Assembly (NCBI RefSeq): GCF_040448685.1 | Contig: NZ_CP159290.1 | Coordinates: forward strand, 1,488,001-1,552,000 | Direction: 5' to 3' | Origin: Cellulosimicrobium sp. ES-005 | Lineage (GTDB): Bacteria > Actinomycetota > Actinomycetes > Actinomycetales > Cellulomonadaceae | Length of the DNA stretch: 64,000 bases | Part shown: positions 44,782 through 58,480 of the stretch, one piece after another | How positions within the stretch are numbered: position 1 is the stretch's first letter | Layout of the letters: each line of letters starts with the position of its first letter | Notes under the pieces: generated by a model | Databases searched by the model: none | Seen by the model: the letters and a program-made list of their open reading frames with translations, nothing else | Told to the model about the DNA's origin: nothing | Position numbers and translations under genes: made by a program

Positions 44782-44802
44782 GCTCCCGCGGTAGGACTTG
44801 AA
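44782..44802. repeat. attL core (left 21-bp direct repeat)
   Basis: Begins GCTCCCGCGG and ends GGACTTGAA; identical to 58460-58480. Reverse-complemented it is the last part of a tRNA (3' T-arm strand and acceptor), but the sequence beyond it (GAATCGCG) breaks the T-arm, so this copy is the truncated one. Confidence 0.88.
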
Positions 44803-44883
44803 GAATCGCGACCTCTGTAGGCCGGGCCCGCGAGAATCTGTAGATTCTGGCCCCATTGCTGGGATTGTCGCCACCGTACCGCG

Positions 44884-44941
44884 TGGCAACACGGGACGCA
44901 ACAGGCCACACGGGTACACTTGGATTGCCAGTAGGTTGCCA
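44884..44941. promoter_or_regulatory. Left arm-type integrase sites and int promoter
   Basis: ATTGCCA (44924-44930) and GTTGCCA (44935-44941) are in the same orientation with starts 11 bp apart, and TGGCAAC (44884-44890) is an inverted copy. The same pair with the same 11-bp step occurs near the right end (58382-58399). TACACT at 44915-44920 is a likely int -10, so integrase binding would overlap its own promoter. Confidence 0.65.
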
Positions 44942-44958
44942 AGCCGGGAGGCCCCGAG

Positions 44959-46152
44959 ATGCCACCGAGGAAGCGTCAGCCCCGCCGCGGGTGGGGACGC
45001 CTGCGCCAGCGCCCGGGAGGGGAGTGGCAGGCCGGGTACATGGGTCCTGACGCTGCTCTGCACTACGCCGCGCACACGTTCGGGACGAAGCTCGACGCCG
45101 AGGCGTGGCTCATCGCCCAGCGACGCCGGATCGACGCCGGCACATGGACCGCCGTGGAGCCCGTGGCCGCGCCCGTGCTGACGCTGGGGGAGTACGCCGA
45201 GACGTGGCTAGAGCGCCGCGACCTGCGTCCCACGACGGCCCGCCAGTACCGGCACTACCTCGACTCCCACATCCTCCCGACGTTTGCCGAGCGTCCCCTG
45301 GCGGACGTCACACCCACCGAGGTAGCGCGCTGGGAGGCGACCTTGCGCCGCGACCTCGCCGCCGCGGCTGCCAAGACCTCGCGCCCGGACCGCACCGGGA
45401 GCACGGCCGTCGCCCACGCCTACGCCCTGCTGCGCACGATCTACCGGGCTGCCGTGCGTGAAGACCTCGTGAGCGTGAGCCCGTGCCGCGTCGAGGGCGC
45501 CGGGCAGGCTAGGCGAGCTGTCGAACCCGTGACGCTCGAGCCCCACGAACTCGCCGCCCTCGCCGCCGCGATCCGGTCGGATCTGTCCGCGCTCGTCCTG
45601 CTGGCAGGCTGGGGCGCACTGCGCCTGGGTGAGCTGCTGGAGCTGCGCCGCGCCGACGTCGACCTCAAGGCCGGGACCGTGCGCGTGGTGCGCCAGGTCC
45701 AGCACCTGCCGCACCACGAGCCCGTTGTCGGGCCACCGAAGACCGACGCCGGACGCCGGACCGTGCACCTGCCCCCGCACGTCGTAGAAGCGCTCCGCGT
45801 CCACCTGGCCAAACATGCCGCACCTGGTCCCCAAGGGCTGCTGTTCCACCGCGACGGAGCGTGGTGGGCGCCCTCGACGCTGCGAGACAAGTTCCGGCCC
45901 GCTGCCGCCGCGATCGGCAAGCCTGCGTTGCGTGTGCACGGGCTACGACACAGCGCCTTGACGCTCGCCGCCCGTACCGGAGCGACGACGGCCGAGCTCA
46001 TGGCCCGTGCTGGGCACACGTCACCGCAGGCCGCGCTGCGCTACCAGCACGCGGCGCAGACCCGAGACGCGGAGATCGCCGCCGCGCTGGCCGTCATGGC
46101 GAGTGCGACCGTGAGCCTCGACGCCGAGCGAATCCGGAGGGCAGAGGGATGA
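44959..46152 (+). CDS. int: Tyrosine recombinase (site-specific integrase)
   Basis: 397 residues from ATG 44959 with CGGGAGG nine bases upstream. There is an N-terminal arm-binding domain (RGWGRLRQRPGGEWQAGYMG, an AP2-like Int fold), a core-binding SAM-like domain (LTLGEYAETWLERRDLRPTT onward) and a catalytic domain with R222 (LRLGELLELR), K261, H327-x-x-R330 (HGLRHS), H353 and nucleophile Y362 (ALRYQH). All catalytic residues are present. It sits 156 bp inside attL, as expected for an element that integrates into a tRNA 3' end. Confidence 0.95.
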   Translation: MPPRKRQPRRGWGRLRQRPGGEWQAGYMGPDAALHYAAHTFGTKLDAEAWLIAQRRRIDAGTWTAVEPVAAPVLTLGEYAETWLERRDLRPTTARQYRHYLDSHILPTFAERPLADVTPTEVARWEATLRRDLAAAAAKTSRPDRTGSTAVAHAYALLRTIYRAAVREDLVSVSPCRVEGAGQARRAVEPVTLEPHELAALAAAIRSDLSALVLLAGWGALRLGELLELRRADVDLKAGTVRVVRQVQHLPHHEPVVGPPKTDAGRRTVHLPPHVVEALRVHLAKHAAPGPQGLLFHRDGAWWAPSTLRDKFRPAAAAIGKPALRVHGLRHSALTLAARTGATTAELMARAGHTSPQAALRYQHAAQTRDAEIAAALAVMASATVSLDAERIRRAEG

Positions 46153-46592
46153 CGCTGCACTTGGACGTGGTGTGCACAGGGAAGGGGCATCACGGCCGCG
46201 GGGAGCACGCCGAGGAACTGCTCGGGAAGATCTACCGCTATGAGTCGCTGGCTGAGCGCTGGGCGCAAGAGGACCCGCTGCCCGACGGGTTCCCCGACCC
46301 GCGCGACGAGCACGATCCGCCCGACTACGTCCACGAGTGGTTCACGACCTACGGCGTGCGCACCGACAACGGCAAGGCGCGGATCCTCGCCCCTGACGCG
46401 GACATGTTCACAACGGGAACCTACGGAACTCCCGGGTGGCATCGGACGCACATCTACAGATGCCGCATCTGCCGCCAGGACCCGCCGCGCATGTTCCGCG
46501 ACGAGACGCTGACGCAGTACGAAGAGATGACGCGCCACACGCCGACGGCCGGGCGGCTCGACGTCTCGCTCAAGCTGCCCAAGATGCGATGA
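46149..46592 (+). CDS. Hypothetical protein with zinc-ribbon-like cysteines
   Basis: 147 residues, ATG overlapping the integrase stop (ATGA). The N-terminal CTGKGHHGRGEH and the later YRCRICRQ give C, H-H and C-x-x-C groups that could form a zinc ribbon with strands either side. The rest is acidic and hydrophilic (PDPRDEHDPPDYVHEWFTTY). Similar small proteins occur in actinophages and integrative elements. Function unknown; coupling to int suggests a role in recombination control or early expression. Confidence 0.75.
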   Translation: MTLHLDVVCTGKGHHGRGEHAEELLGKIYRYESLAERWAQEDPLPDGFPDPRDEHDPPDYVHEWFTTYGVRTDNGKARILAPDADMFTTGTYGTPGWHRTHIYRCRICRQDPPRMFRDETLTQYEEMTRHTPTAGRLDVSLKLPKMR

Positions 46593-46594
46593 CA

Positions 46595-46720
46595 GGGGCG
46601 ACACGCCGAGCGTACGGCTCGCCGGACGTGTCCCCACTCACGTAGCCTGTCCCTAGCGGCCCACCCTGTCCCATTCGGGGAGGTGCCAGGCTCCGGCACT
46701 CCGGGCGGGAACATTCCCGG
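46595..46720 (+). promoter_or_regulatory. Control region before the excisionase-replication operon
   Basis: The 190-bp gap holds an imperfect stem-loop after the previous gene (GACACG at 46600 with CGTGTC at 46627), two direct CCTGTCCC repeats (46646-46653 and 46665-46672, 19 bp apart), GTGCC/GGCAC arms near 46683-46698 and GGGAACATTCCC near 46708. It is the likely promoter and operator of the xis-rep operon. No clear -10 was found. Confidence 0.4.
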
Positions 46721-46783
46721 GGGTTCCTAGGCCCACACTCGCAGCGCGAGGACGGGTCTCTAGGTCAACCCCTGGAGCCCCCG

Positions 46784-46996
46784 TTGAGCACCGCAACCCA
46801 TCCTGAACGGCTCGCCAGCACCGCCGTTGCCGGCGAGCGCTACGACGTCCACGCCCGAACGATCCGCCGATGGATCGCAGAGGGGCGCCTGACCGGCTAC
46901 CGCGTCGGTCCCAAGCTGCTCAAGGTCGACCTCGACGAGCTGGATCGCATCCTGTGCGCTCCGATCCCGACGGCTGGTCGGGGGCACGTCGCGTGA
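46784..46996 (+). CDS. Excisionase-like helix-turn-helix protein
   Basis: 70 residues from a TTG start at 46784 with TGGAG upstream. It has a MerR-like winged helix: ASTAVAGERYDVHARTIRRW followed by IAEGRLTGYRVGPKLLKVDL and DELDRIL, the HTH_17/excisionase pattern. It probably directs excision by bending DNA at the att sites, or acts as an early regulator. The rare TTG start suggests low expression. The stop overlaps the next GTG. Confidence 0.82.
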   Translation: MSTATHPERLASTAVAGERYDVHARTIRRWIAEGRLTGYRVGPKLLKVDLDELDRILCAPIPTAGRGHVA

Positions 46997-47343
46997 TCAC
47001 ACCCCAGACACGAGAACGCCGCCCGGGTGGCGACCAGGCGGCGGCGGTTCTCGAGGTGAACAAGACGAGCGTACCGCTCACCCACGACAAGGTCGCGATC
47101 CTCGACGGCGTGGTGCTCACGCCCTCCGAGCTCGCGCTCTACCAGAGCGGTGTCGAGGCCGGGATCGAGATCGGTCGTCGGCAGGTCGAGGACGAGAACC
47201 GCGAGTCGCACGAGACCGCGGCTCGCGTCGCACGGATGGTCGCCGAGACGGTCCCCTTCGAGGAGCTCTGCCGACGCCGCGGTGAGGAACGCCGGGCTGA
47301 GCACCAGCGCAGGATCCTGCAGGCACGCGGGGTGATCGCATGA
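46993..47343 (+). CDS. Hypothetical protein
   Basis: 116 residues, GTG overlapping the previous stop. The first half is extended (VPLTHDKVAILDGVVLTPSE). The second half is helical and strongly charged (RQVEDENRESHETAARVARM, RRRGEERRAEHQRRILQ), suggesting a coiled coil or nucleic-acid contact. Tightly coupled to the ATPase downstream (ATGA overlap). Not recognised. Confidence 0.7.
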   Translation: MITPQTRERRPGGDQAAAVLEVNKTSVPLTHDKVAILDGVVLTPSELALYQSGVEAGIEIGRRQVEDENRESHETAARVARMVAETVPFEELCRRRGEERRAEHQRRILQARGVIA

Positions 47344-48569
47344 GCATCGACCCCTATATCGAGCTCGTGATTCCCGAGCCGCCCGAGGAGTTCGGGGCGG
47401 TTCCCGGTTCCGCACCCCCTGTGTGGGAACCGGGAACTGCTGCATCGGGCAACGGTTCCCCGGTTCCGGGAACCGACCGGGAACCGGGAACCGCCCTCTA
47501 CGCGGACCTCGCCGCGCTCCTGGACGGGACTCTCCCAGAACCGCCCGAGCCGGAAGTCCTCTCGTGCACGGACGGCGTCGCGCTGTTCTACCGCGCCCAG
47601 GTCAACCACGTCTTCGGGGACCCGGAGTCCGGCAAGACCTTCCTCTGCCAGGCCGCCGTCGCCGAGGCGCTCACGGAACACCGACGTGCCGCGATCATCG
47701 ACATGGACCACAACGGTCCGGCGTCCACCGTCTCGCGCCTGTTCGACCTCGGCGCCCCTGAGGGCGCTCTGCGGGACCTCGACCGCTTCCGGTACGCCGA
47801 GCCCGAGGACGGCGCCCACCTGGTGGCGGTCGTGCGTGACCTCGTCGCATGGAAGCCCTCTGTCGTGGTCCTGGACTCCCTCGGAGAAATCTTGCCTGTC
47901 TTCGGGGGGTCCTCGAACAGTCCGGACGACTTCACCCGCGTGCACTCCCTGGTGATGAAGCCGCTCGCGATGGCCGGCGCATCCGTCCTCGTGATCGACC
48001 ACCTCGCGAAGAGCTCGGAGTCTCGGGCTCAGGGCGCGACGGGGACCGCGGCCAAGAAGCGCGCCGTGGGCGGTGTATCTCTGCGGGTGACGATCGCTGA
48101 GCAGTTCGTCCCCGGCAAGGGCGGTGCAGCACACGTCGCGATCGCGAAGGATCGTCACGGCGGACTGCGCGCACACCGACCCACCGGGGACAAGGAACCC
48201 CTCGCCGGCACGTTCCGGCTCTACCCGTCCGAGGAGGACCGGCGCTGGGCAGTGCACGCGCCTGCCTCCGACGAGCGCAACCCTGCCGAAGCCGCAGACG
48301 CTGCCGACGTCGAGGCGCTGCGCCAACTCGCCCCGCCCCCGCGAAGCGTCGAGGACGCGCGCACCCGGCTCGGATGGCGGAAGGCCCGCGCCGCCGTTGC
48401 GCTACGGACATACCGGGAGCAGATCGGACATACGGAAGCGGTTCCCGGTTCCGGGACCCAGGGTCGGGAACCGGGAACCGCTACGGGAGCCACCTGCCCG
48501 GCGTGCGGAGACCCTGTCGATCCCGTGCTCGTCGCAGCTGGGATCCCTCACTGCGAGGTGGCCTCGTGA
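47340..48569 (+). CDS. P-loop ATPase, RepA/RecA-like (replication module)
   Basis: 409 residues from ATG 47340. A low-complexity N-terminus (residues about 20-52, Pro/Gly/Ser/Thr with PGS and EPGT repeats) precedes a RecA-fold ATPase: Walker A GDPESGKT (93-100), AAIIDMDHN, Walker B VVVLDSLGE near 180, and LVIDHLAKSSES. This resembles RepA-type hexameric helicases and AAA_25 proteins of plasmids and phages. A second low-complexity patch lies at about 367-382, then a CPACGDPVDPVLVAAGIPHC zinc pair near the C-terminus. The inferred role is replication of the excised element. The DNA encoding both low-complexity patches is made of inverted GGTTCC/GGAACC repeats. Confidence 0.82.
   Translation: MSIDPYIELVIPEPPEEFGAVPGSAPPVWEPGTAASGNGSPVPGTDREPGTALYADLAALLDGTLPEPPEPEVLSCTDGVALFYRAQVNHVFGDPESGKTFLCQAAVAEALTEHRRAAIIDMDHNGPASTVSRLFDLGAPEGALRDLDRFRYAEPEDGAHLVAVVRDLVAWKPSVVVLDSLGEILPVFGGSSNSPDDFTRVHSLVMKPLAMAGASVLVIDHLAKSSESRAQGATGTAAKKRAVGGVSLRVTIAEQFVPGKGGAAHVAIAKDRHGGLRAHRPTGDKEPLAGTFRLYPSEEDRRWAVHAPASDERNPAEAADAADVEALRQLAPPPRSVEDARTRLGWRKARAAVALRTYREQIGHTEAVPGSGTQGREPGTATGATCPACGDPVDPVLVAAGIPHCEVAS
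47398..47492. repeat. Cluster of GGTTCC/GGAACC inverted repeats inside the ATPase gene
   Basis: Arm GCGGTTCCCGGTTCC (47398-47412) pairs with 47426-47440 at 14 of 15 bases around a 13-base loop. A second set spans 47454-47492, with GGTTCC copies facing three GGAACC copies starting at 47469, 47480 and 47487. They encode the Pro/Gly-rich N-terminal segment. Confidence 0.85.
48437..48482. repeat. Perfect 16-bp inverted repeat near the end of the ATPase gene
   Basis: AGCGGTTCCCGGTTCC (48437-48452) and its exact complement at 48467-48482, around a 14-base loop that can itself pair (GACC with GGTC). Same GGTTCCCGGTTCC unit as the cluster a kilobase upstream. Confidence 0.88.
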
Positions 48570-48703
48570 ACCGCCTTTGCGTGTGCGGTCACACGCTCCG
48601 GATTCACGGCCGTCCCTGGATCCCCGATGACCACTGCCGCGCCTGGAACCCAATCGACGGCGCCTGCGACTGCACCGACTTCGACGAGGAGACCCGACGA
48701 TGA
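48566..48703 (+). CDS. Small cysteine-rich protein
   Basis: 45 residues, GTG overlapping the ATPase stop and its own stop overlapping the next ATG. C-x-C-G-H at the start (RLCVCGHTLRIHG), then DHCRAWNP and ACDCTDFDE: five cysteines and several histidines suggest a zinc knuckle. Small proteins of this C-x-C-G-H ... C pattern are frequent in actinophages. Function unknown. Confidence 0.65.
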   Translation: MNRLCVCGHTLRIHGRPWIPDDHCRAWNPIDGACDCTDFDEETRR

Positions 48704-48879
48704 GCGTGACCACGAGCCGTCCCGAGACCGTCGACCAGCACGGCACCCGTCACCGGTACGGCTGCCGCATCCCGGGTTGGACCAGCGAGCCATCTCCGCT
48801 GCGCGGATGGCATATCTGCCGATGCTCCGAGTGCGGCGCGGTGCGGCTCGTGAGGGCTGGAGGTGGGGATGGACGGTAA
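48700..48879 (+). CDS. Very small zinc-ribbon-like protein
   Basis: 59 residues from ATG 48700 (ATGA overlap) to TAA 48877. It has a C in RYGCRIPGW, then WHICRCSECGAVRLVRAGGG, which gives a C-x-C-x-x-C knuckle. Its tail overlaps the start of the next gene by 11 bases. Position and overlaps support translation; function unknown. Confidence 0.6.
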   Translation: MSVTTSRPETVDQHGTRHRYGCRIPGWTSEPSPLRGWHICRCSECGAVRLVRAGGGDGR

Positions 48880-49276
48880 TGGGGCGAAGGGATACCTCGT
48901 GGGGGTACACGGGCCTGGCGTCCTAGTCCCCGCGAGGGTAGCCGCCTGGCTCGAGAAGCGAGCCGGCCTGTCCTCGTTGCGCGCGCGGGCGCGTGGTGCC
49001 GACCCCGAGGTGGACGCGGTGCTTCTCGCCCTCCGCGTTGCTGGCCTCGCGTGGCTCACTTCCGCCACCGGAAGTGAGGTCGAGCCTGAGCCGGAAGTGC
49101 GACGAGAGTCGAGTCAGTGGTTGAGCACGGGACAGGCCGCCGAGCTGCTGGGCATGACGGACCGAGGAGTCCGACTCGCGATCAGCGAGGGACGACTCGA
49201 AGCCGAGAAGGTCGCAGACCGGTACCGGATCAGCCGCAGCAACGTCGAGCACTACCGGGCCGCGAGGGCGGCGTGA
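48869..49276 (+). CDS. Helix-turn-helix (HTH_17) DNA-binding protein
   Basis: 135 residues from ATG 48869 (GGAGG five bases upstream; GTG 48863 overlaps that site). The N-terminal half is helical (VLVPARVAAWLEKRAGLSSL). The C-terminal part is a clear excisionase/MerR-type HTH: WLSTGQAAELLGMTDRGVRL followed by AISEGRLEAEKVADRYRIS and RSNVEHYRAAR. It could be the second regulator of the element, or the switch protein for the late cargo genes that follow. Confidence 0.78.
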   Translation: MDGNGAKGYLVGVHGPGVLVPARVAAWLEKRAGLSSLRARARGADPEVDAVLLALRVAGLAWLTSATGSEVEPEPEVRRESSQWLSTGQAAELLGMTDRGVRLAISEGRLEAEKVADRYRISRSNVEHYRAARAA

Positions 49277-49287
49277 CAGGAGGACCG

Positions 49288-49881
49288 ATGGACACGAACC
49301 AGACGATCGCGAAGATCGTCGCAGCGGGCGGAGCGGACGAGCTGCGCACGACCCTCGACAAGCACGCCACCAGCGCGACGCGCGAGTACGACGACATCCG
49401 CAGCCAGGACGACTACACCGAGGACGCCCGGCACCGGCTGCTGTCCGAGGCGTACGACCGGCGCAAGGCCTCGCTCGACAACGACCTGGCCCGGCTCGCG
49501 TCCAGCGCCGGCGAGGTCGACCGTGGTGCGGTCGGACGAGCCTTCGGGACCACGGGACTCCCCGGCGATCCGGCATCACTGACGATCTCGCTGCGAGACG
49601 CGCAGGACCGCGTCGCGAAGGTCCGGGACGAGGAAGAGCTCGAGACGCTCCTCGGTCGCGCGACCCGCAGCGGCGACGAGGTCCTCGCCCGGGCAGTCGC
49701 GGCCCGCGCCGCAGAGATCGGCAAGACGTACGTCGTCGAGGAGTTCGTCAGGGTCCGCCCGGACCTCAAGACGGACGTCGACCGGGCGATGCTCGCCGTC
49801 GGGCGCCCGTCGAGCGCGGGCAAGCTCGAGTGGAACGTGCGCCTCGGCAAGATCCGTCCCTCCGAGCTGAAGAGGCGCTGA
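49288..49881 (+). CDS. Coiled-coil protein upstream of the tape-measure-like gene
   Basis: 197 residues from ATG 49288 with CAGGAGG upstream. It is almost wholly alpha-helical and charged (REYDDIRSQDDYTEDARHRL, RKASLDNDLARLASSAGEVD, DAQDRVAKVRDEEELETLLG). It lies one base before the tape-measure-like gene, where phages have tail assembly chaperones, but no slippery frameshift site or known chaperone motif is visible. A structural or assembly partner of the following protein is possible. Confidence 0.65.
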   Translation: MDTNQTIAKIVAAGGADELRTTLDKHATSATREYDDIRSQDDYTEDARHRLLSEAYDRRKASLDNDLARLASSAGEVDRGAVGRAFGTTGLPGDPASLTISLRDAQDRVAKVRDEEELETLLGRATRSGDEVLARAVAARAAEIGKTYVVEEFVRVRPDLKTDVDRAMLAVGRPSSAGKLEWNVRLGKIRPSELKRR

Positions 49882-49882
49882 C

Positions 49883-51592
49883 ATGGTCACCACCTTCCGG
49901 GTCGCGACCCTCGAGACTGCGTTCACGGCGAATACCGACGATGTCGACGCCGCGGTCAAGCGAGTCAAGGGCGAGGCCGAGTCGGTCACGAAGGCGCCTG
50001 CGGTACTCGAGGTCGGGGCTGACACCGCAGACGCGGACAGGAAGCTCAAGGACGTCCAGGATCTCCTCAAGTCCGTGGGCCGTGAGGACATCGAGCCGCA
50101 GGTCGTCGTCGATGCCCTCGACGCCATGGCGGACCTCGACCGTCTCGCGGACGAGCTCGAGGACGTAGACCGAAAGCGCACCGAGGCCGACATCCAGGCC
50201 GACGCGGACGAGGCACTCGACCGTGCAGCGAAGGTCTACGACGCGCTGCAGGACATCGACGACCTCGACGTCGAGGCCGAGGTTCGCGCGGACACGGACC
50301 GCGCATCCAAGGGCCTGGACGGGTTCAGGGACGAGGCAGGGCAGTCGGGCCGGGAGGCTGCTGCCTCGTTCTCTGGTGGCTTCGACGACGTGACGGACAC
50401 CGTCCAGGAGATCGCTGCCAACGCCTTCGCCGGGTTCGGGCCCATCGGCTCTGCGGCCGGGATCGTTGCCGCCGCCGGTCTGGGCGTGCTCTTCACCAGG
50501 CTGCAGGACTTCGCAGACCTCGTGAACGACGCCAAGGAAGAGTCCGGCGAGCTCGCCTTGGAGTTCAAGGAGGCCGGCGTCGGGTTCGACCGGTCCGGTC
50601 TCATCGAGAAGTTCGACGAGATGCTGACCAAGGTCACCGACGTCCGATCCTCGTGGGAGCTCTGGCAGGACGAGGCCAAGACGAACCTCGACGACATTCA
50701 GGTCGGGCTCGAGGGGACGACCGTCACCCTGGGCGACCTGTACGCCGCGGTGGGGTCCGGCGACTTCTCCAACCTCGAGAAGCACATCGACATCCTGCGC
50801 GAGCAGAACGAGGCCCTCGACGAGCAGTACCGGGCGCTCGACCCCCTTCTCGACGCACCGGTCGCAGACAAGCTGGCTGACGAGTACCAGGCTCGCAGCC
50901 GCACGATCGAGGTACTGCAGTCCCAGGCCAACACGATGCGAGACGCCGAGGAGGTCTCGTACCAGCTCCGCGAGGCCGAGACCGGGCTTACCGAGGAGCA
51001 GCTGCGCCAGGTCGACGCCCTCACGCGAGTGAACGACGCGCTGCGGGACATGAACGACCTGCGACAGTCCACGATCGAGGCGACCCTGAACTTCGAGGAC
51101 GGGATCGCGTCGCTGACGGACAAGCAGGAGGGCTGGAACAACAGCCTGTCCACGGGCGACCAGATGGGGCGCGACAACCAGCGCACCATCCTCGGCCTAA
51201 CTGACGACCTACAGGCCTTGTACGACGCAACGCTCGAGCAGACCGACTCGCAGGAGCAGGCAAACGCAGTGCTGCGAGACGGACGACAGCGCCTCCTCGA
51301 CAGCGCTGCGGCGGCGGGCTACAACGCCGGCGAGGTCGCGGCACTCGTTGACGAAGTCCTCTCGATCCCGCTCTCCCGCGGCACGGACGTGTACGCGAAC
51401 GTCGCGTCAGCGCAAGCGACCTTGCAGCGGTTCGACCGGGAGTGGAACGGGCACCGGGTGTCGATCTACTTCGACGCGAAGACCGGGACGCAGGTCAACG
51501 GCGTCGGGTTCGCTGCACGCGCCTTCGCTGCGGGCGGGCCGATCCCCGGGCCGCCGCACCAGACCGTCCTCACGATAGGAGCCCACGCATGA
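49883..51592 (+). CDS. Phage tail tape-measure-like protein (short form)
   Basis: 569 residues from ATG 49883. The N-terminus (ETAFTANTDDVDAAVKRVKG, VLEVGADTADADRKLKDVQD) has the repeated VxVxADTxxAxxxL units of tape measures. A hydrophobic segment lies near residues 178-204 (FAGFGPIGSAAGIVAAAGLG), and long helices follow. The end carries the RFDREWNGHRVSIYFDAKTG and AFAAGGPIPGPP region, which in full tape measures comes before GxDSVPALLxPGEYV, but here the protein stops shortly after. It is about half the usual length. It stands alone without tail tube or baseplate genes, so a satellite-owned ruler or decoy tape measure is the leading idea. Confidence 0.82.
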   Translation: MVTTFRVATLETAFTANTDDVDAAVKRVKGEAESVTKAPAVLEVGADTADADRKLKDVQDLLKSVGREDIEPQVVVDALDAMADLDRLADELEDVDRKRTEADIQADADEALDRAAKVYDALQDIDDLDVEAEVRADTDRASKGLDGFRDEAGQSGREAAASFSGGFDDVTDTVQEIAANAFAGFGPIGSAAGIVAAAGLGVLFTRLQDFADLVNDAKEESGELALEFKEAGVGFDRSGLIEKFDEMLTKVTDVRSSWELWQDEAKTNLDDIQVGLEGTTVTLGDLYAAVGSGDFSNLEKHIDILREQNEALDEQYRALDPLLDAPVADKLADEYQARSRTIEVLQSQANTMRDAEEVSYQLREAETGLTEEQLRQVDALTRVNDALRDMNDLRQSTIEATLNFEDGIASLTDKQEGWNNSLSTGDQMGRDNQRTILGLTDDLQALYDATLEQTDSQEQANAVLRDGRQRLLDSAAAAGYNAGEVAALVDEVLSIPLSRGTDVYANVASAQATLQRFDREWNGHRVSIYFDAKTGTQVNGVGFAARAFAAGGPIPGPPHQTVLTIGAHA

Positions 51593-52494
51593 GCTTCCTC
51601 GCCCTGACCGCCCATGGCGACCGCGCTGAGCTCTACTCCGACACGTGGTCGTACTCGCGCACCGTGCGCGTTCTCGACACCACCACGAAGATCGAACCGA
51701 TCCTGCACCTGGACATGGCGATCGCGATCCTCGGCGACCACGAAGCCGCCGTCACGTGGAAGCGCATGATCGGCCTGACCAACGCCACGACGATGGACCA
51801 GCTCAACGACGTCACTCCTGAGTACGCCAGGCAGATGTGGGCGAGCCTGCCCGAGCTCGGCGAGCGCGAAGAAGTCACCTTCGTGCACGTCGGCTGGTCC
51901 CACCGCTCAGCCTCCTTCACGGCCACGACCTTCTCGTCGCGGTTCGACTTCGTGCCTCGCCCCGTCGTCGGTCTGTTCGTCTACCCGGCGCCGATCGGCG
52001 TCCGACCCAGCGGCATAGAGCTCGCCGGCATGGCCGAGCGACTCGTCGGCGACACCGGCCAAGACACGCTCGAGCGCTTCGCAGGCTTCCCCGCCATGCT
52101 CCCGCCGGCCACCACCGACGGGTGGGTCGACCTCGCGATGCGCGCCCGCCTCGACCGCGCCTGCGCCTCGCAGGCCACCCAGATGAAGGTGCTCCTCGGC
52201 GGGAAGCTACAGCGCACCGTCCTGCACCGCGGCCGGGTCGAACAGTCCGTGGTGCACACCTTCGACGACCGAGTGAACCGGCCCGAGTTCCAGGCCGTCG
52301 TCGCCGGCACCATGCACCCCCGCGGACAGATCCAAGACTGCACCTGCGGCTCCGGCAAGACCTACCGCGACTGCTGCATCCAGACCTACATCGACGCCCC
52401 GTGCTGGTGCGGCAGCGACAAGTCCATGAGTGACTGCTGCGCGCTACCCCTCGACGACGTGCTCCTCACCGCCCACCGGAAGGACGTGCCGTGA
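51589..52494 (+). CDS. SEC-C double zinc-motif protein
   Basis: 301 residues, ATG overlapping the tape-measure stop (ATGA). The C-terminus has two SEC-C motifs in tandem: CTCGSGKTYRDCC (about 251-263) and CWCGSDKSMSDCC (about 272-284). The N-terminal part (FLALTAHGDRAELYSDTWSY, HLDMAIAILGDHEAAVTWKR) recalls the strand order of proteasome-type Ntn hydrolases, but I see no catalytic nucleophile at residue 2, so this is tentative. SEC-C motifs usually bind zinc and contact proteins such as SecB or nucleic acids. Its coupling to the tape-measure-like gene suggests they act together. Confidence 0.78.
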   Translation: MSFLALTAHGDRAELYSDTWSYSRTVRVLDTTTKIEPILHLDMAIAILGDHEAAVTWKRMIGLTNATTMDQLNDVTPEYARQMWASLPELGEREEVTFVHVGWSHRSASFTATTFSSRFDFVPRPVVGLFVYPAPIGVRPSGIELAGMAERLVGDTGQDTLERFAGFPAMLPPATTDGWVDLAMRARLDRACASQATQMKVLLGGKLQRTVLHRGRVEQSVVHTFDDRVNRPEFQAVVAGTMHPRGQIQDCTCGSGKTYRDCCIQTYIDAPCWCGSDKSMSDCCALPLDDVLLTAHRKDVP

Positions 52495-52676
52495 GCGACG
52501 AGACCCACTCACATCGCTTGAGCGCCGTGCTCGAAGCCATCGCCGACGCCGCCAGGGAGCGACAACGCCGACGTGCCGAGGCCGACGCTGCGACGGGCCT
52601 TGAACGACGCCGTGCCGCCCGGAACCCCGACAAGCAGGCCGCGACCCAAGCACTGCGGCGACACCTCACCCGATGA
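52491..52676 (+). CDS. Small basic helical protein
   Basis: 61 residues, GTG overlapping the SEC-C gene stop. Highly charged (ADAARERQRRRAEADAATGL, ERRRAARNPDKQAATQALRR) and probably one long helix that may bind nucleic acid. Last gene of the overlapping run from 49288; unknown. Confidence 0.55.
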   Translation: MSDETHSHRLSAVLEAIADAARERQRRRAEADAATGLERRRAARNPDKQAATQALRRHLTR

Positions 52677-52785: not shown

Positions 52786-53136
52786 ATGACCACCACGCAG
52801 GCACCACCGCCCCCCGCAGAGCTGCGTGCTCCCGGCGTCGAGCTCTGGGACGCGATCGTCGCTGACTTCGAGCTCGGACCAGCCGAGGCAGCGCAGCTCG
52901 AAGAGGCGTGCCGTACCCGTGACCGCATCCGAGACCTCGATGCCGCCGTGGCGAAGGACGGCATCATGATCCCGAGCAGCCAGGGGATGCGCCTTCACCC
53001 GGCCGTCGCGGAGGCTCGCGCACACCGCCTCGCGATGGCGCGAATCCTCGCCACACTCGGCGTGCCCGGACTCGACGAGGACGCGCCGGCAGCCCGTCCC
53101 GTCCGCGGCGTCTACGCGGGACGGGGTCGACGATGA
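52786..53136 (+). CDS. P27-type phage terminase small subunit-like protein
   Basis: 116 residues from ATG 52786 with AAGGAGG six bases upstream. The core pattern GVELWDAIVADFELGPAEAA, then QLEEACRTRDRIRDLDAAVA, the Gly/Ser turn SSQGMRLHPAVAEARAHRLA and LATLGVPG is that of P27-family small terminases, which recognise the packaging site and bring in the large subunit. No large terminase is next to it. In phage satellites, own small terminases redirect packaging to satellite DNA, which is the likely job here. Confidence 0.8.
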   Translation: MTTTQAPPPPAELRAPGVELWDAIVADFELGPAEAAQLEEACRTRDRIRDLDAAVAKDGIMIPSSQGMRLHPAVAEARAHRLAMARILATLGVPGLDEDAPAARPVRGVYAGRGRR

Positions 53137-53324
53137 GGCGCCGACTGCCCGAGCCTGAGCCCACGATCGAGCCGCCGCCCGAGTTGCTGACGTTCGACCC
53201 GGATCTTTGGCCCGACGTGCCCACGTGGCAGAAGGCGCGCCAAGACTGGCGCCACGAGCACGGCGTCAAGATCCCGCCGGACCCCGACGGCTACTACCGC
53301 ATGTTCCGAGTGGAGTGGATATGA
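53133..53324 (+). CDS. Small acidic proline-rich protein
   Basis: 63 residues, ATG overlapping the terminase stop. Pro/Glu-rich N-terminus (EPEPTIEPPPELLTFDPDLW) and aromatic end (DPDGYYRMFRVEWI). The overlaps on both sides support translation. Unknown; could be a partner of the small terminase. Confidence 0.55.
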   Translation: MRRRLPEPEPTIEPPPELLTFDPDLWPDVPTWQKARQDWRHEHGVKIPPDPDGYYRMFRVEWI

Positions 53325-53536
53325 GACGACGCCACGAGCCCACGGGTACCACGCCGGTGCCGGCCCGGCTGCGCACGTTCCCTGGCCGCACGATCGACGA
53401 CTGGTACCCCTGGCATGTCGAGCGCCACGCCTTCTACCGGGAGAACCCGGACGCGTGGCCGAACATGGTCGACTTTCTCTGCGAGAGCTACGACGCCCGG
53501 GACAGCGTCATGCCGAAGCTGCGGAAGACGAGGTAG
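53321..53536 (+). CDS. Small hypothetical protein
   Basis: 71 residues, ATG overlapping the previous stop (ATGA). Aromatic core TIDDWYPWHVERHAFYREN-P and a basic end MPKLRKTR. Third member of the terminase-led overlapping trio. Not recognised. Confidence 0.55.
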   Translation: MRRRHEPTGTTPVPARLRTFPGRTIDDWYPWHVERHAFYRENPDAWPNMVDFLCESYDARDSVMPKLRKTR

Positions 53537-53662: not shown

Positions 53663-54310
53663 ATGAAGACTCGCTTGCTTGCCTCCGCCGTTGTTCTCGT
53701 CGCGGCCCTCCTCGCCGGGTGCTCGGCACAGATCCCCGCGTCGTCCGAGCCGCCCGAGCCTGCCGGGACTCGCACTCCCAGCGAGGATGCCTCGGAGGAG
53801 CCCAGCGCCGAGGAAGTCGATGTCGAGGAGACGGAGGAGCCGACCGTCGCTGAGCCGGAGACGAACGAGCGCGGGAACATCGTCAAGCAGATCGGTGAGA
53901 CCGGGGGCCTTCAGGACCCGGCGACGAACGAGTGGACTCTCGACTTCAAGGTGACCGAGATCGTGCCGAATTTCCAGTGCACGAGCGAGTACTCGGAGGC
54001 GCCGGTGAACGGGCAGTTCGTCGCGCTGCGGTTCGAGGTGAACACCACTGCGGCGTGGGACTCCTCGACGATGGGTGACTTCATGATGACGTTCCACGAC
54101 TTCCAGGTGTTCGACGCGAACAACATGCGGATCAACGATCCGATCGGCAACGCCTACATGTGCCTGAGCGACGCAGAGCAGTTCCCGCAGACGATGGGAC
54201 CGGCACAGTCCGCCAACGGGACGATCGTCCTCGACGTTCCCGCAGGTACAGGTGTCGTGGCGTACCGACCGGTCTACGTCCAGAGTGGTGGCTGGGAGTG
54301 GAGCTTCTGA
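53663..54310 (+). CDS. Cell-surface lipoprotein with DUF4352-like domain
   Basis: 215 residues from ATG 53663 with AAGGAA upstream. Signal peptide MKTRLLASAVVLVAALLAGC with the lipobox cysteine at 20, an acidic Pro/Glu linker to about residue 75, then a beta-sandwich domain (DFKVTEIVPNFQCTSEYSEA, NGQFVALRFEVNTTAAWDSS, YRPVYVQSGGWEWSF) like DUF4352/TRF2-type immunoprotective domains. Phage and satellite lipoproteins of this kind often block superinfection at the surface. That role is inferred. Confidence 0.75.
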   Translation: MKTRLLASAVVLVAALLAGCSAQIPASSEPPEPAGTRTPSEDASEEPSAEEVDVEETEEPTVAEPETNERGNIVKQIGETGGLQDPATNEWTLDFKVTEIVPNFQCTSEYSEAPVNGQFVALRFEVNTTAAWDSSTMGDFMMTFHDFQVFDANNMRINDPIGNAYMCLSDAEQFPQTMGPAQSANGTIVLDVPAGTGVVAYRPVYVQSGGWEWSF

Positions 54311-54354
54311 CCGGACATGGATCAGCAGCCTTCTCGGTACTCGTCTCGAGCCAC

Positions 54355-54360
54355 TAGGCT
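54355..54360 (+). promoter_or_regulatory. Putative -10 element (TAGGCT)
   Basis: TAGGCT ends six bases before ATG 54367. Leaderless geometry inside the mobile element, supporting an independent promoter for the small ORF and the membrane gene. Confidence 0.5.
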
Positions 54361-54366
54361 CCAGCC

Positions 54367-54531
54367 ATGGTTGAGAACAAGGGTCGAATCAGCGAACCAG
54401 GGAGCGGCAGAGACTCGCTCACGGGGTCTGCTGCCACGGAACGAAAGTCGGTTGACCAGGTGATCGATGCGAAGGGCAAGGGTGGGGGGTCCGGCGACGG
54501 CGCCAAGAAGGATCCCGCCGGCAAAGCATGA
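54367..54531 (+). CDS. Small glycine/lysine-rich protein
   Basis: 54 residues from ATG 54367 to TGA 54529-54531. Hydrophilic, with Gly/Ser/Lys-rich end (KGKGGGSGDGAKKDPAGKA). It lies behind its own -10 and overlaps the next gene by four bases (ATGA), so it is probably translated and couples to the membrane protein. Unknown role; perhaps a small antidote or leader. Confidence 0.6.
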   Translation: MVENKGRISEPGSGRDSLTGSAATERKSVDQVIDAKGKGGGSGDGAKKDPAGKA

Positions 54532-55181
54532 TCGACGGCTGGACAGGCCTCATCATCTTTCTTCTTGCTGCGGCACCTGGGCTCCTCTTCGATCTGAGAG
54601 CCCGCCGTTGGAGAGTCTCACCCCACGAGTCGGCGTTCGCTGAGGTCGGACGAATCGCCCTTGCGTCGATCGTGTTCTCGACGATGGGGGCGCTCATCGC
54701 TATCAGCGCCTGGTCGCTGCACTCTCGGCTGTGGTTTGATTACGTGCGGTTCGCAACGGACGACGTCTATCGCCTTGAGATGGCTCCACGTGCTCTGGTC
54801 CTCGCAGGTGTCGCGACCAGCTTCGCGTGCTTCCTGGCGTTCATGGCGGACCAGCTGTGGAAGATGTGGCGCGCCGGCGACGGCAAGACGCCAAACCTGA
54901 CCCCCGACCCCGAGTGGCTTATCGCCTTCCGCAAGCAGTGCCCCGATGGGCACGAGCCGTTCGTGAGAGTTGCGATGGACGACGGGACGCTCTGGCTGGG
55001 CTGGGTCGGCGCCTACTCGACCGAGGCGGACTCCGAAACTCGTGCCCTCGTGCTGGCTGGCCCGCTAGCTCGCCGCGATCCAGGCAAGAAGAAGGCCGTC
55101 AATCTCGATCCAGCGTATGAGCGCGTAGTGCTAGAGGGCGCCCACATCTCGTCGATCGCGGTTCAGTACCTAGAGCCCTAG
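54528..55181 (+). CDS. Membrane protein, DUF6338-like
   Basis: 217 residues from ATG 54528. Two or three helices (GLIIFLLAAAPGLLFDLRA; IALASIVFSTMGALIAISAW; ALVLAGVATSFACFLAFMAD) precede a soluble C-terminal domain with an SH3-like strand pattern (VRVAMDDGTLWLGWVGAYST). The N-terminal helix with PGLLFDLRARRW resembles DUF6338 proteins. Base composition is visibly lower in GC than the neighbours, suggesting recent acquisition. With the small ORF before it, it looks like an accessory cargo pair, possibly anti-phage; that is a guess. Confidence 0.65.
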   Translation: MIDGWTGLIIFLLAAAPGLLFDLRARRWRVSPHESAFAEVGRIALASIVFSTMGALIAISAWSLHSRLWFDYVRFATDDVYRLEMAPRALVLAGVATSFACFLAFMADQLWKMWRAGDGKTPNLTPDPEWLIAFRKQCPDGHEPFVRVAMDDGTLWLGWVGAYSTEADSETRALVLAGPLARRDPGKKKAVNLDPAYERVVLEGAHISSIAVQYLEP

Positions 55182-55270
55182 TTGTCGAAGATCGAGTAGT
55201 GACGATCGGGACGGCCCCAGCAATGTAGACGGCATCGGCAAAGCCATATGAAGCGATGGGATGCCGAGTA

Positions 55271-55921
55271 CTAGGACACGTCTTGGGCGATGTGCGCGAG
55301 TGTCACGTCGCTCGTGACGAGCAGCGCGCATGACTTGTCGGGATCGCCCGCTCGACCGCCCTTCGCGACGATGCAGCGCATCGTCTCGCCGGCGTCGATG
55401 CGCTTGGCGATCCGTGCCGCGTTCTGCTTGTTGACGTACCCGATCTTGCCGTTCCTGGCGTGGATGGCGACGGCGTTCTTGTCGTGCGCGTTCTCCGGTT
55501 CGCGCACGAGCTCGAGGACTCGGCCAAGCGGGAGAGCGGCAGCCACGAACGTCGCCTCGTGGTAGGCGCGTCCGCGGAGGCCGAACATGTAGATGCCTAT
55601 CTTGTAGAGGGCGCGCGAGCGCGGGTTGATCCAGCCCATGCCGGGTGCTTCGAGGACCAGGCGACCGCGTTCCTTGACGAGGCGCAGGTTCGGAAAGGCA
55701 CCCTCTCGACGGGCCAGCGCCGCCGCTTCTCGCTCGCCCTCGAGGTACTCGTCCCGCCACACCGTCGTGCGCTGAGCGACCGGAGTCGGCGCACTGGGGG
55801 CAGGCCGAGAAGTCTGGGCAACCCGGTGGGAACGTCGGGCCGTGACCCGAGCCGTTGGTGCCGGCGCAGGCTTCGGCGGCGTCTCGTCCCGGCGACCGAA
55901 GAGCTTCTTGAGGAGTCCCAT
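55271..55921 (-). CDS. HIRAN domain protein
   Basis: 216 residues from ATG 55921. A basic disordered N-terminus (LLKKLFGRRDETPPKPAPAP ...) precedes a HIRAN-type fold near residues 100-180: MGWINPRSRALYKIGIYMFG, then VLELVREPENAHDKNAVAIH and NGKIGYVNKQNAARIAKRID. HIRAN domains bind 3' single-stranded DNA ends, in fork-remodelling proteins and some phage proteins. First of the leftward genes by position and last in its transcription direction. Confidence 0.78.
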   Translation of the reverse strand: MGLLKKLFGRRDETPPKPAPAPTARVTARRSHRVAQTSRPAPSAPTPVAQRTTVWRDEYLEGEREAAALARREGAFPNLRLVKERGRLVLEAPGMGWINPRSRALYKIGIYMFGLRGRAYHEATFVAAALPLGRVLELVREPENAHDKNAVAIHARNGKIGYVNKQNAARIAKRIDAGETMRCIVAKGGRAGDPDKSCALLVTSDVTLAHIAQDVS

Positions 55922-55933
55922 GGCAGGTGCGGC

Positions 55934-56440
55934 TCAGCCCCGTGTCAGGTCGCGACGAAGTGCCGGAACGAGTGCGCTGACCCGCCCGTGCTGCTCGCGG
56001 TTCGCGCTGCGCGATTGTGGAAGGGTGAGAGTCAGGTCGTCGGCGTAGGTCAGTCTGAGCGAGACCCGTCCTGGCCAGCTCTCCGCCAGGCCGTTCGCGA
56101 ACGCACTGGTCCCGGTTGTGATCTCGATGGCCGTAAGCGTCGCGCGGTCGCGGACAGAAGTCGTCCGCTCGTCCCGTTCGCGCGCCCTGACGCCGTGAAC
56201 CTGGATGAGGAGGCTGGTCGAGAGGATGGCGATGTCGACCGTGAAGTCGTCGTCCTCGCCCCCGAGTGTCACGCTCACGTCCGCGAACTCGATTCCTTCA
56301 CCGTCCTGCAGTGCCAGCGCGATGTCCGAGAGGGCCAGGCCGTACCATCGCGGCTGCCCGTATCCGAACACGTGGGCGAGTTCGGTTGAGCTCTGAGTGA
56401 TGGCGTCGTTGATGGGTTTGAACACTTCTCTGTGATCCAT
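55934..56440 (-). CDS. Hypothetical protein
   Basis: 168 residues from ATG 56440 (MDHREVFKPINDAITQSSTE). Mixed alpha/beta with an acidic middle (LGGEDDDFTVDIAILSTSLL) and basic end (QSRSANREQHGRVSAL). No motif recognised. It lies 12 bases upstream of the HIRAN gene in its transcription direction and is probably cotranscribed with it. The long upstream region (56441-56891) is noncoding and highly structured. Confidence 0.65.
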   Translation of the reverse strand: MDHREVFKPINDAITQSSTELAHVFGYGQPRWYGLALSDIALALQDGEGIEFADVSVTLGGEDDDFTVDIAILSTSLLIQVHGVRARERDERTTSVRDRATLTAIEITTGTSAFANGLAESWPGRVSLRLTYADDLTLTLPQSRSANREQHGRVSALVPALRRDLTRG

Positions 56441-56891
56441 GCCTGAACACTTCCAGAGCGCCACGATGCGGGGAAGGATGAAAGGCGCGGACGCCCTGCG
56501 GGCGGCTCTCTCCCGGAGCGGACCCCCTCCCCAAGCAACCCCCGATCCAACGCCCGGACTCGGAACCGGCCACGACCAGTAGCCCGCCCCGGTGTCGGGA
56601 GCGAGCTTCGCGTGGACCCTGGCGACGTCGTGCACTACGAGGCGAGGGTGCCGCGGCCGGTTCCGCGGACTGTGCCACCGGACCCCATCGGTTCACGGCT
56701 GAGGGGCAGGAGCGCCGTTGTTTGTCCAGCCTTCTTCCCGGTGTCGGGAAGAAGGCTGAGCGATGGGCTACGCGCCCAGCGCGTACCCCTGTGGGGTACG
56801 TCTGGCGTACCCCCCATCGACCGCTCAGGCCCGCCAAGGGGGTGCAGAGTGTGCACACCCTTGGCGAGGCTCAGAGGTCGAGATCGATCCG
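56441..56891. other. 450-bp noncoding stretch with stacked hairpins
   Basis: No convincing gene on either strand. Three strong structures lie in its right half. First, 13-bp perfect stem AGCCTTCTTCCCG / CGGGAAGAAGGCT (56728-56740, 56745-56757) with a GTGT loop. Second, a branched unit in which GAGCGATGGG (56758-56767) can pair with CCCATCG...CGCTC (56814-56826) around GTACCCC/GGGGTAC inner stems. Third, 56832-56846 pairing with 56852-56866 over 14 of 15 bases. They could be a structured RNA, a leader of the 56440 gene, or terminators of the gene at 56892. Confidence 0.6.
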
Positions 56892-57347
56892 TCAGACGGA
56901 CGGAACTCCTGACGAGAGCTCCGTAGGGATGACATCTGGAATGCGTGCGATGAGCTGCAGGTCCTCGCCGTAGTCGGCGAGCGGACGACAGATCCGTGCG
57001 GAGTAATACGGCTGGCCCGCTGCCATGTTCGGGCGGAAGCGCCAGGCACGATGCGCGAGGTCTGGTGTGTCTGCCATGCGCAGCCGGTAGTTGGCGGCGT
57101 AGGCGATCGCTGTCACGAGCTCATCCCGAGTCGCGTCGCTCCGTAGGAAGAGCGAGAGCCGCTGCCTCGCGACGTTCCAGGTCATCGACCCGATCACGCG
57201 AAACTCTCCCTCTCCGAACTTGTCGCCGAACGAGCGGCAGGGGACGTCGTGATCGACCATGCGGAGCCCGGTGCGAGCGGCGAGAGCGTAGGCCTCCTGC
57301 GTTGAAAGCGATGGCTTGGTCGCTACAAAGTTCCAGACGACGCTCAT
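56892..57347 (-). CDS. Hypothetical protein
   Basis: 151 residues from ATG 57347, overlapping the stop of the gene upstream (ATGA). Opens MSVVWNFVATKPSLSTQEAY, with WNVARQRLSLFLRSDATRDE in the middle and a Cys/Tyr-containing part (PYYSARICRPLADYGED). No motif recognised. Paired with the DUF6907-like gene. Confidence 0.65.
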   Translation of the reverse strand: MSVVWNFVATKPSLSTQEAYALAARTGLRMVDHDVPCRSFGDKFGEGEFRVIGSMTWNVARQRLSLFLRSDATRDELVTAIAYAANYRLRMADTPDLAHRAWRFRPNMAAGQPYYSARICRPLADYGEDLQLIARIPDVIPTELSSGVPSV

Positions 57348-57655
57348 CGCTCGCCCCTGTGGCCGCTGACGATCCCGGCGGCCACCTCGAGCGCGTCCGA
57401 CAGCGTGCGGATTTCCGCGAGGGTGGTCAGGTCGTCGTCGAGGACGTCGATGCGGATGTCCTGCAGCCCGTCATCCTCCCTGCCATAGCGGTACTCGACG
57501 GTGAAGATTGAGACGACGTCGTCGATCCGCGCCTCGTGGTGGCGTGTCCAGCCATGCGGGCCGTCCGGCTCCCAGGTGCAGCTCTCGCCTTCCGCACACC
57601 AGCCAACGGTGCACTCGGCGGGAGGCTTCGGAATGGTGTTCGTCCTGTCAGGCAT
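57344..57655 (-). CDS. DUF6907-like protein
   Basis: 103 residues from ATG 57655, with GAGAGGAG seven bases upstream. CTVGWCAEGESCTWEPDGPH, then TRHHEARIDDVVSIFTVEYR and a C-terminal strand-helix. The C-x-x-x-W-C pattern with a following HH is that of the DUF6907 family, very common in actinobacterial chromosomes and mobile elements and without known function. The upstream 400 bp hold the palindrome array. Confidence 0.7.
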   Translation of the reverse strand: MPDRTNTIPKPPAECTVGWCAEGESCTWEPDGPHGWTRHHEARIDDVVSIFTVEYRYGREDDGLQDIRIDVLDDDLTTLAEIRTLSDALEVAAGIVSGHRGER

Positions 57656-57692
57656 GATGATGCTCCTCTCAGATGGGCTCAGTACTGCTGAG

Positions 57693-58020
57693 GTCATCGG
57701 TGACGTCCGTTCTGCGGACGCCATCGGGATGGGGCCGACTCGATCGAGGGGTCATCGGTGACCTGAGTGGTGTCGAGGTCACCGATGACCTACGCACTGC
57801 GTAGGTCATCCCGCTCCGCGAGTGCTAGGTGCACCTCGCAGGGCTTCTTCGTTGTATTCCCGGATTCGGGAATAGCGCCACGGCTCCTGCCTCGCGGACG
57901 TCCTGGATTCGGGACGAGTGTCTCGAAGGGTCGCGTTTCGAACGCGACCCTTCCGGCGCTCCTCGGGAGTTCCGAAGAGGCGCTGCACAGTTCTCATCGG
58001 CGCTAACCGAGGAATCTCGG
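57693..58020. repeat. Array of palindromes upstream of the DUF6907-like gene
   Basis: In order: GTCATCGGTGAC (57693-57704) with CGTCCG/CGGACG next to it; GTCATCGGTGACC (57751-57763) pairing perfectly with 57777-57789; GATGACCTACGC (57784-57795) pairing perfectly with 57799-57810; ATTCCCG/CGGGAAT (57856-57862, 57867-57873); AAGGGTCGCGTT (57926-57937) pairing perfectly with 57941-57952; CCGAG/CTCGG (58007-58020). The motif GTCATCGGTGAC occurs three times counting the inverted copy. No credible ORF crosses the region. It looks like a compound operator plus terminators. Confidence 0.7.
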
Positions 58021-58027
58021 ATTTGCA

Positions 58028-58049
58028 CTAGTACGGGATCCCGTACTAG
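58028..58049. promoter_or_regulatory. Perfect 22-bp palindrome
   Basis: CTAGTACGGGA followed immediately by its exact complement, with no spacer. A perfect palindrome this long suggests binding by a symmetric dimeric repressor or a recombinase. It sits between two leftward genes, upstream of the palindrome array. Confidence 0.75.
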
Positions 58050-58067
58050 GTGTGGCGATCGCCGCGC

Positions 58068-58292
58068 TCACTGGACTCGCTCCGGATACGTCAGGCGCGT
58101 CGTCACGACGGGCGTGATCCCGGGCGTCCACCGCACGTCGCACCGGGCAGTGCCGAGGGCGTCAGTGCCGCACGACATGCACGACGGCTCGATCACGAGA
58201 CCAAGCGCAGGCGAGCTGAGGATGAGCGTCCCGTCCGCGGGCGCTCCACACGAGCACCGGGGATCGGTAGGGTTGTGCCCCACGGTCTGCAC
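58068..58292 (-). CDS. Small zinc-ribbon-like protein
   Basis: 74 residues from GTG 58292. C-S-C-G near residue 13-16 and C-M-S-C-G near 38-42 (PRCSCGAPADG; EPSCMSCGTDALG) with strands between them, the layout of a zinc ribbon. First gene of the leftward module. No good ribosome-binding site; supported mainly by the spaced cysteines. Confidence 0.5.
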   Translation of the reverse strand: MQTVGHNPTDPRCSCGAPADGTLILSSPALGLVIEPSCMSCGTDALGTARCDVRWTPGITPVVTTRLTYPERVQ

Positions 58293-58381
58293 CTCTCACT
58301 AGGTGCCCGACCGAGGGCCAGGTTCGCGGTTGCCGCCGCTGCCTGGCCCGACCTGCCTGCGGTCGGGCTCTGGGGAGGCCA

Positions 58382-58399
58382 GTTGCCAACACGTTGCCA
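58382..58399. promoter_or_regulatory. Right arm-type integrase sites
   Basis: GTTGCCA at 58382-58388 and 58393-58399, same orientation, starts 11 bp apart, which is the exact spacing of the left pair at 44924/44935. Both lie within 160 bp of the att core, where phage-type integrases bind with their N-terminal domain. Confidence 0.65.
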
Positions 58400-58411
58400 T
58401 GCGCAACGCGA

Positions 58412-58451
58412 AAGGCCCCCGACCCGGGTTACTTCCCAGGTCAGGGGCCTT
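58412..58451. terminator. Terminator at the right end of the element
   Basis: AAGGCCCCCGACC (58412-58424) pairs with GGTCAGGGGCCTT (58439-58451) with one mismatch. Read leftward it comes 10 bases after the tRNA 3' end carried by the element and is followed by a TTTC tract, so the element brings its own tRNA terminator. Confidence 0.7.
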
Positions 58452-58459
58452 CTCTACGT

Positions 58460-58480
58460 GCTCCCGCGGTAGGACTTGAA
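58460..58480. repeat. attR core of the satellite-like element (right 21-bp direct repeat)
   Basis: Identical to 44782-44802. Here the neighbouring bases continue the tRNA: the T-arm is complete. Confidence 0.88.

Follow-up and report, generated by a model that had tools for sequence, protein, structure and literature searches.

The 64,000-bp stretch of Cellulosimicrobium sp. ES-005 DNA analysed here (the window, G000:C1:1488001-1552000, from a 4.86-Mb, one-contig genome labelled G000) carries an integrative element of ~13.7 kb at positions 44782-58480, which encodes a small terminase (TerS) and a tape-measure protein (TMP), and between whose terminal repeats Pfam and PHROG profile searches recognised no capsid, portal, connector, large terminase, tube, tip/baseplate or lysis genes. 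The element is flanked by perfect 21-bp direct repeats GCTCCCGCGGTAGGACTTGAA, identical to the 3' end of tRNA-Asn(gtt). The left copy (44782-44802) forms the attachment site attL, and the right copy (58460-58480) forms attR and doubles as the left att site of a small prophage inserted in tandem. ARAGORN calls no tRNA within the window because the intact tRNA-Asn sits beyond its end, at L004:17461-17535 (window position about 74461-74535). In a strain of the same species (G117), the left flank joins an intact tRNA-Asn directly, followed by the right flank, with flanks about 99% identical to those of G000; since both the element and the small prophage are absent from this empty site, the boundaries are exact.

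At the centre of the element, on the forward strand, a 197-aa helical protein (49288..49881) is encoded directly upstream of the 569-aa TMP (49883..51592), which has a hydrophobic segment at residues ~185-206 and whose stop codon is overlapped by the start of a 301-aa protein with a SEC-C motif (51589..52494, SEC-C 2e-7). A small coupled gene (52491..52676) precedes that for TerS (52786..53136), which is of the Terminase_4/P27 type. TerS scores above the Terminase_4 cut-off, matches phrog_1496 (2e-17) and is 38% identical to the annotated TerS of mycobacteriophage Bernal13, and by this homology the element encodes a true small terminase. The best TMP profile for the 569-aa protein, phrog_58, gives an E value of 0.08, while tblastn returns annotated TMPs of Arthrobacter and Microbacterium phages. 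Identity is 26-31% over up to 77% of its length with TMPs of ~15-kb Arthrobacter phages, and 25-37% over most of its length with prophage TMPs from the same bacterial family, the 37% being with the TMP of a same-genus prophage that bears head and tail genes.

The two partner proteins have no such counterparts: neither finds a match among 50,697 phage records, nor does the SEC-C protein among 72,556 plasmid records, and IMG/VR yielded no viral contigs for either the TMP or the SEC-C protein. The AlphaFold2 (AF2) model of the 197-aa protein is all-helical, with a predicted local distance difference test (pLDDT) score of 67; its assignment as a known tail chaperone was dropped, as it matches no family or phage protein. 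Outside the SEC-C motif the 301-aa protein has no Pfam or PDB match, its AF2 model (pLDDT 33) is unusable, and in an order-wide sample its matches beyond G000 were to the SEC-C motif only. Five aligned homologues proved too diverged for a scan of the collection. It weakly matches phrog_13702, labelled terminase large subunit, a label that we do not accept, no Pfam terminase domain being present. Its N terminus may, to judge by a motif, contain a proteasome-beta/HslV-like (Ntn hydrolase) domain.

The element is also present in a genome of the same genus (G118), where it sits alone at tRNA-Asn between 17-bp repeats with no adjacent prophage. Pairwise ratios of non-synonymous to synonymous substitution (dN/dS) between the two copies are lowest for TerS (0.08), followed by the TMP (0.16; dS 0.57), the 197-aa protein (0.17; 93% identical) and the SEC-C protein (0.25), values which indicate that these genes are under purifying selection and that the element is not decaying. 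The called open reading frames (ORFs) are stop-free throughout and cover about 84% of the element, and 4-bp overlaps link consecutive genes at a number of junctions, among them those preceding the ATPase gene, between the TMP and SEC-C genes and following TerS. In G118 the replication gene is an unrelated ATPase in place of the RecA/AAA ATPase of G000, so that the element evolves by modules. The G118 contig is titled Sphaerisporangium cinnabarinum ATCC 31213, yet the genome (4.4 Mb, L093) is of the same genus, and the name is probably wrong.

Related elements and the tape-measure cassette

Including that of G118, six other elements of the bacterial family, from several genera, carry a TMP gene without a full set of virion genes, making the TMP a recurrent structural gene in seven elements, beside which the gene mix varies between chaperone, SEC-C protein, capsid or large terminase. 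Their bounding tRNA repeats measure 24-40 bp, except in G118 and in the contig-cut G120. The G139 element (tRNA-Asn, ~10.5 kb) encodes an excisionase, a replication protein, a tail assembly chaperone (phrog_3860, 2e-10), a TMP (9e-18), a HIRAN-domain protein and an integrase, and that of G160 (tRNA-Thr, ~10.8 kb) an integrase, an 831-aa TMP (4e-86) and a SEC-C protein. G120 preserves the gene order around the TMP seen in G000, with a 197-aa homologue (34% identity, 3e-18), an 864-aa TMP (2e-90), a SEC-C protein and a lipoprotein. A 374-aa TMP is accompanied in G212 (tRNA-Ser, ~8.6 kb) by a homologue of the SEC-C protein that lacks the SEC-C motif, a scaffold and an HK97-type capsid, and in G047 (tRNA-Arg, ~19 kb) a 1012-aa TMP (1e-24) occurs with an ATPase, a large terminase (Terminase_6C, 3e-13) and a HIRAN gene. 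G120 also holds a second, broken element of the TMP/SEC-C type ~33 kb from the intact one (L060 about 11000-18500), with three stops in its SEC-C gene.

A wider circle of elements shares other genes with that of G000. The ~8.8-kb element at tRNA-Asn in G010 encodes a TerS 78% identical to ours, and neither TMP nor capsid was recognised in it; a 224-aa G010 protein considered as a minor tail protein was dropped, having no phage or family match. In G014 and G086 a capsid-like gene lies beside a related integrase or excisionase. Small, partial elements that bear a capsid gene and are linked to these through their integrase, excisionase or TMP occur at L049 12280-13128, L120 6970-8100 and L135 4240-5487, and no portal or large terminase was recognised in these. 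An integrase related to that of the element is also found in a complete small prophage (G111), which implies that integrases move between satellites and phages. None of the related elements contains a recognised complete virion set.

An earlier note on this DNA had delimited the element as we do, described its integrase, excisionase-like protein, replication ATPase, P27-type TerS and tape measure, reported no capsid, portal, large terminase, tube, baseplate or lysis genes, and judged decay of a full prophage less likely. The 21-bp repeats, the profile and homology searches, the open and overlapping genes and the dN/dS values bear out each of these points. It had also proposed that capsid and large terminase genes inside the repeats of close relatives would speak against a satellite; neither is present in the close relative G118 or in the more distant G139 and G160, and although a capsid gene is present in G212 and one for a large terminase in G047, the full set is in no element. 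The identity of the element as a satellite is well supported by its exact insertion and the empty site, by genes that are intact and under purifying selection, and by a family of elements that lie between att repeats and lack a complete virion module.

The TMPs of these elements fall into two main groups. Those of G000, G118, G139 and G212 (the first group) resemble 687-768-aa TMPs of larger siphophages and of some small prophages, whereas the TMPs of G120 and G160 share 43-45% identity with one of 894 aa encoded by a prophage at 3.85 Mb in the G000 genome. Homologues of the SEC-C protein are encoded downstream of the TMP in G118, G120, G160 and G212, and in G000 and G120 the TMP gene has homologous neighbours on both sides, for the 197-aa protein upstream and the SEC-C protein downstream, though their TMPs belong to different groups. 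The simplest reading of these sequences is that the TMP has been swapped inside a conserved cassette. The gene upstream of the G160 TMP was considered as a homologue of the 197-aa protein and rejected as not homologous. The G160 TMP ends ~98 residues before the end of its phage relative and that of G212 is about half length; we do not treat a shortened C terminus as a general property of satellite TMPs, which would fit G160, G212 and perhaps G120, because the G000 TMP is not clearly truncated.

Remaining genes and the tandem prophage

The left part of the element carries forward-strand genes for integration and replication. A 397-aa tyrosine integrase (44959..46152; Pfam 9e-16, PHROG 5e-57) has 51-56% identical counterparts in tRNA-Asn elements of G010 and G014, and is coupled to an unclassified protein (46149..46592) kept in G118 with 98% amino acid identity and a dN/dS of 0.30. 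There follow an excisionase/MerR-like helix-turn-helix (HTH) protein (46784..46996; phrog_66 3e-5; 60% identical in G010, 47% in G139), a small protein partially conserved in G118 (46993..47343), the RecA/AAA-type replication ATPase whose gene it overlaps (47340..48569; AAA_25 3e-5, under the Pfam cut-off) and an HTH DNA-binding protein (48863..49276; phrog_66 1.5e-4). Two 45-bp imperfect palindromic repeats, GGTTCCCGGTTCC...GGAACCGGGAACC, lie near both ends of the ATPase gene (47397-47441 and 48438-48482) and are possible origin or regulator sites.

The small coupled protein before TerS is 70% identical in G118, and the two small coupled ORFs after TerS (53133..53536, forward) are both kept there, the second being 35% identical in G010. 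Beyond them lie forward-strand genes for a lipoprotein (53663..54310; phrog_806 1e-7) and a DUF6338 membrane protein (54528..55181; Pfam 8e-31; 99.5% identical in G118), and on the reverse strand one for a HIRAN-domain protein (55271..55921; Pfam 3e-10) that resembles the defence candidate PDC-M03B (PADLOC 4e-8); all three are probably accessory or defence cargo. HIRAN-domain genes are cargo in three satellites (the gene just described, L046 13755-14693 and L137 8627-9385), namely those of G000, G139 and G047. The remaining reverse-strand accessory ORFs are one of uncertain start (55934..56440; about 80% identical in G118), a coupled pair with no family match (56892..57724) and one near attR (58068..58292; 92% identical in G118). 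Upstream of these genes, a cluster of direct and inverted repeats GGTCATCGGTGAC at 57672-57811 may contain operators.

Directly after the element, at the same att site, is a complete small siphophage prophage of ~16 kb (58460 to ~74461; L004 1460-17535), which the earlier note did not describe; a single tRNA gene thus holds both, one behind the other. It has its own integrase, which differs from that of the satellite, and genes for an amidase lysin, TMP, tube, capsid (phrog_2263, 5e-44), portal (Phage_portal 1e-6, under the curated cut-off), large terminase (phrog_9, 5e-42) and an HNH protein, the TMP and tube being identified from gene position and from homologues that other small prophages carry. 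Its capsid protein (537 aa) looks fused, and a small terminase was not recognised. The prophage at 3.85 Mb is a larger siphophage prophage beside tRNA-Thr(cgt) (L065 7000-20000, L066), whose TMP weakly matches that of the element.

Proposed mechanism and rival explanations

We tentatively propose, with a probability of about 60%, that the element is a helper-dependent satellite whose TerS redirects packaging and whose own TMP is built into helper tails, chimeric tails being its most likely function at that same level of confidence. Upon infection or induction by a siphophage helper, the element would excise (Int/Xis) and replicate (ATPase), and the operon running from the 197-aa protein through the TMP and SEC-C protein to TerS would be expressed. 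TerS would steer the helper's large terminase onto element DNA, while the satellite TMP would take the place of the helper TMP in tails whose tube and tip proteins come from the helper. The resulting virion would be a helper shell and a chimeric tail around satellite DNA, with the satellite ruler setting tail length. A TMP specifies about 0.15 nm of tail per residue, and a tail of roughly 85 nm is therefore expected from 569 residues. The 197-aa and SEC-C proteins probably aid the entry of their own TMP into the tail, as chaperone, adaptor or in TMP maturation; these roles are proposed solely by positional analogy, as the 197-aa gene occupies the usual place of a phage tail chaperone and the SEC-C gene that of a tip protein. 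The helper is predicted to be a siphophage whose terminase is of the P27 type and whose TMP belongs to the first group.

Several observations weigh against this mechanism. The TMP profile score, taken alone, is weak. Searches of this genome by shared DNA and TMP similarity identified no helper: packaging-like DNA common to the element and the two resident prophages amounts to chance-level matches, and the element TMP has no BLASTP match to that of the neighbouring prophage. Among 17 genomes of the genus, the two satellites are the sole carriers of the Terminase_4 family. The N terminus of the G118 integrase is lost, and that copy may therefore be stuck.

In the main rival reading, the TMP would instead act in interference or defence, as a decoy that pairs with the tail parts of a helper or competitor, blocking or mis-sizing their tails, and that stays out of satellite virions. 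Satellite blocking of tail assembly is known from Tai (PMC11364771) and Rta (PMC12987554), the element bears other defence-like cargo, and the TMPs of G160 and G212 are without the C-terminal portion present in those of phages. However, the element TMP is as long as that of its closest prophage relative (G115, 529 aa) and shares an operon with TerS, and the chaperone accompanying the G139 TMP fits building over blocking; we consider a decoy unlikely. We think it decidedly improbable that the element works as a single functional unit with the adjacent prophage (58460-74461), the prophage being its helper, mobilised from the same att site. The tandem insertion in a single tRNA-Asn, the lack of a recognised small terminase in the prophage and the broad TMP group, which takes in TMPs of similar small phages, would suit such a unit, but the att repeat is the sole DNA common to both, the integrases and TMPs are unlike, and G118 has the element without the prophage. 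Least credible, and already disfavoured, is a prophage remnant in which TMP and TerS are what is left after the loss of head and tail genes: both are indeed phage genes and the G118 integrase is truncated, yet every called gene is open with operon overlaps intact, dN/dS is 0.08-0.25, similarly incomplete gene sets are found again between intact att repeats at tRNA-Asn, Thr, Ser and Arg, and the neighbours of the TMP are absent from the phage records.

A bolder extension of the chimeric-tail satellite, which we put forward as possible though somewhat doubtful, is that the helical protein, a swappable TMP and the satellite-only SEC-C protein would form a dedicated tail-reprogramming device not known from phages, in which the TMP is exchanged to match different helper tails and the two retained partners install the foreign TMP. 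The elements described here supply a natural series, with the TMP family varying and the partner genes constant, that makes the choice of satellite over helper TMP directly testable.

Comparison with known satellites

The effect on helper tails that the earlier note proposed has a direct precedent in the phage-inducible chromosomal island-like elements (PLEs) of Vibrio cholerae, reported in March 2026 (PMC12987554). Satellites had until then been thought to use helper tails unaltered. PLE virions contain the satellite TMP in place of that of the helper and have tails shortened by about 10 nm, and deletion of tmp cuts transduction by 96-99.9% (PMC12987554). The same report shows putative tmp genes in PLE-like elements and in capsid-forming phage-inducible chromosomal islands (cf-PICIs; Extended Data Fig. 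10), and suggests that tail manipulation may be general. By analogy, action of the G000 TMP on helper tails is plausible. TMP-bearing satellites are thus known; new here are an actinobacterial host, a siphophage-type TMP, a TerS of the element's own and an uncharacterised partner protein. In the literature covered, outside which most subscription journals and preprints lie, we found no report of a TMP in actinobacterial satellites. The recurrence of the TMP in seven elements, mixed with chaperone, terminase or capsid genes, provides an independent actinobacterial, siphophage-type set, and as relatives carry swapped TMP versions, satellites may commonly borrow and re-tune the tails of phages.

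Small and integrative, with its own integration and replication genes and no full virion set, the element is a satellite in the general sense, and its TMP gene, conserved within it and under selection, places it with TMP-encoding satellites. The closest likeness is to PLEs, which are likewise capsid-less integrative satellites with their own TMP beside tail-assembly genes and with TMPs diverged into distinct groups; the roles proposed for the 197-aa and SEC-C proteins resemble what the tail assembly chaperone (TAC) and BhuB may do there. PLEs, however, serve a contractile-tailed helper and carry TAC and baseplate hub genes, whereas the present TMP is siphophage-type, and the element differs further in its own TerS, its tRNA site, its actinobacterial host and its SEC-C protein, for which phages yielded no match. 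The two are alike in organisation, and the element is set apart from PLEs by its high-GC actinobacterial host and relatives rather than by gene comparison.

Likewise, the element displays individual features of other satellite families. With TerS-type PICIs and Staphylococcus aureus pathogenicity islands (SaPIs) it shares a size of about 14 kb (within the ~10-15 kb of such att-bounded islands), an integrase, excisionase, replication gene and own TerS between att repeats, and accessory genes at the end, but it differs in having its own TMP; where PICIs have a typical regulator, a primase and capsid-redirecting genes, profile searches of the element returned only HTH genes and a RecA/AAA ATPase, and recognised neither PICI regulators nor a capsid-remodelling gene. 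A satellite integrase and tmp gene are shared with cf-PICIs (PMC12987554), which make their own capsid and packaging proteins (PMC10690885), whereas the capsid, portal, connector and pair of terminase subunits that define them are here represented by TerS alone. The Mulch and Flayer satellites of Streptomyces phages are also from Actinomycetota, but encode full capsid and packaging sets, with no tape measure mentioned in their description (PMC10690885). Corgi, Whytu and Yavru, small Arthrobacter siphophages, have TMPs related to that of the element, but are ~15-kb phages and not satellites.

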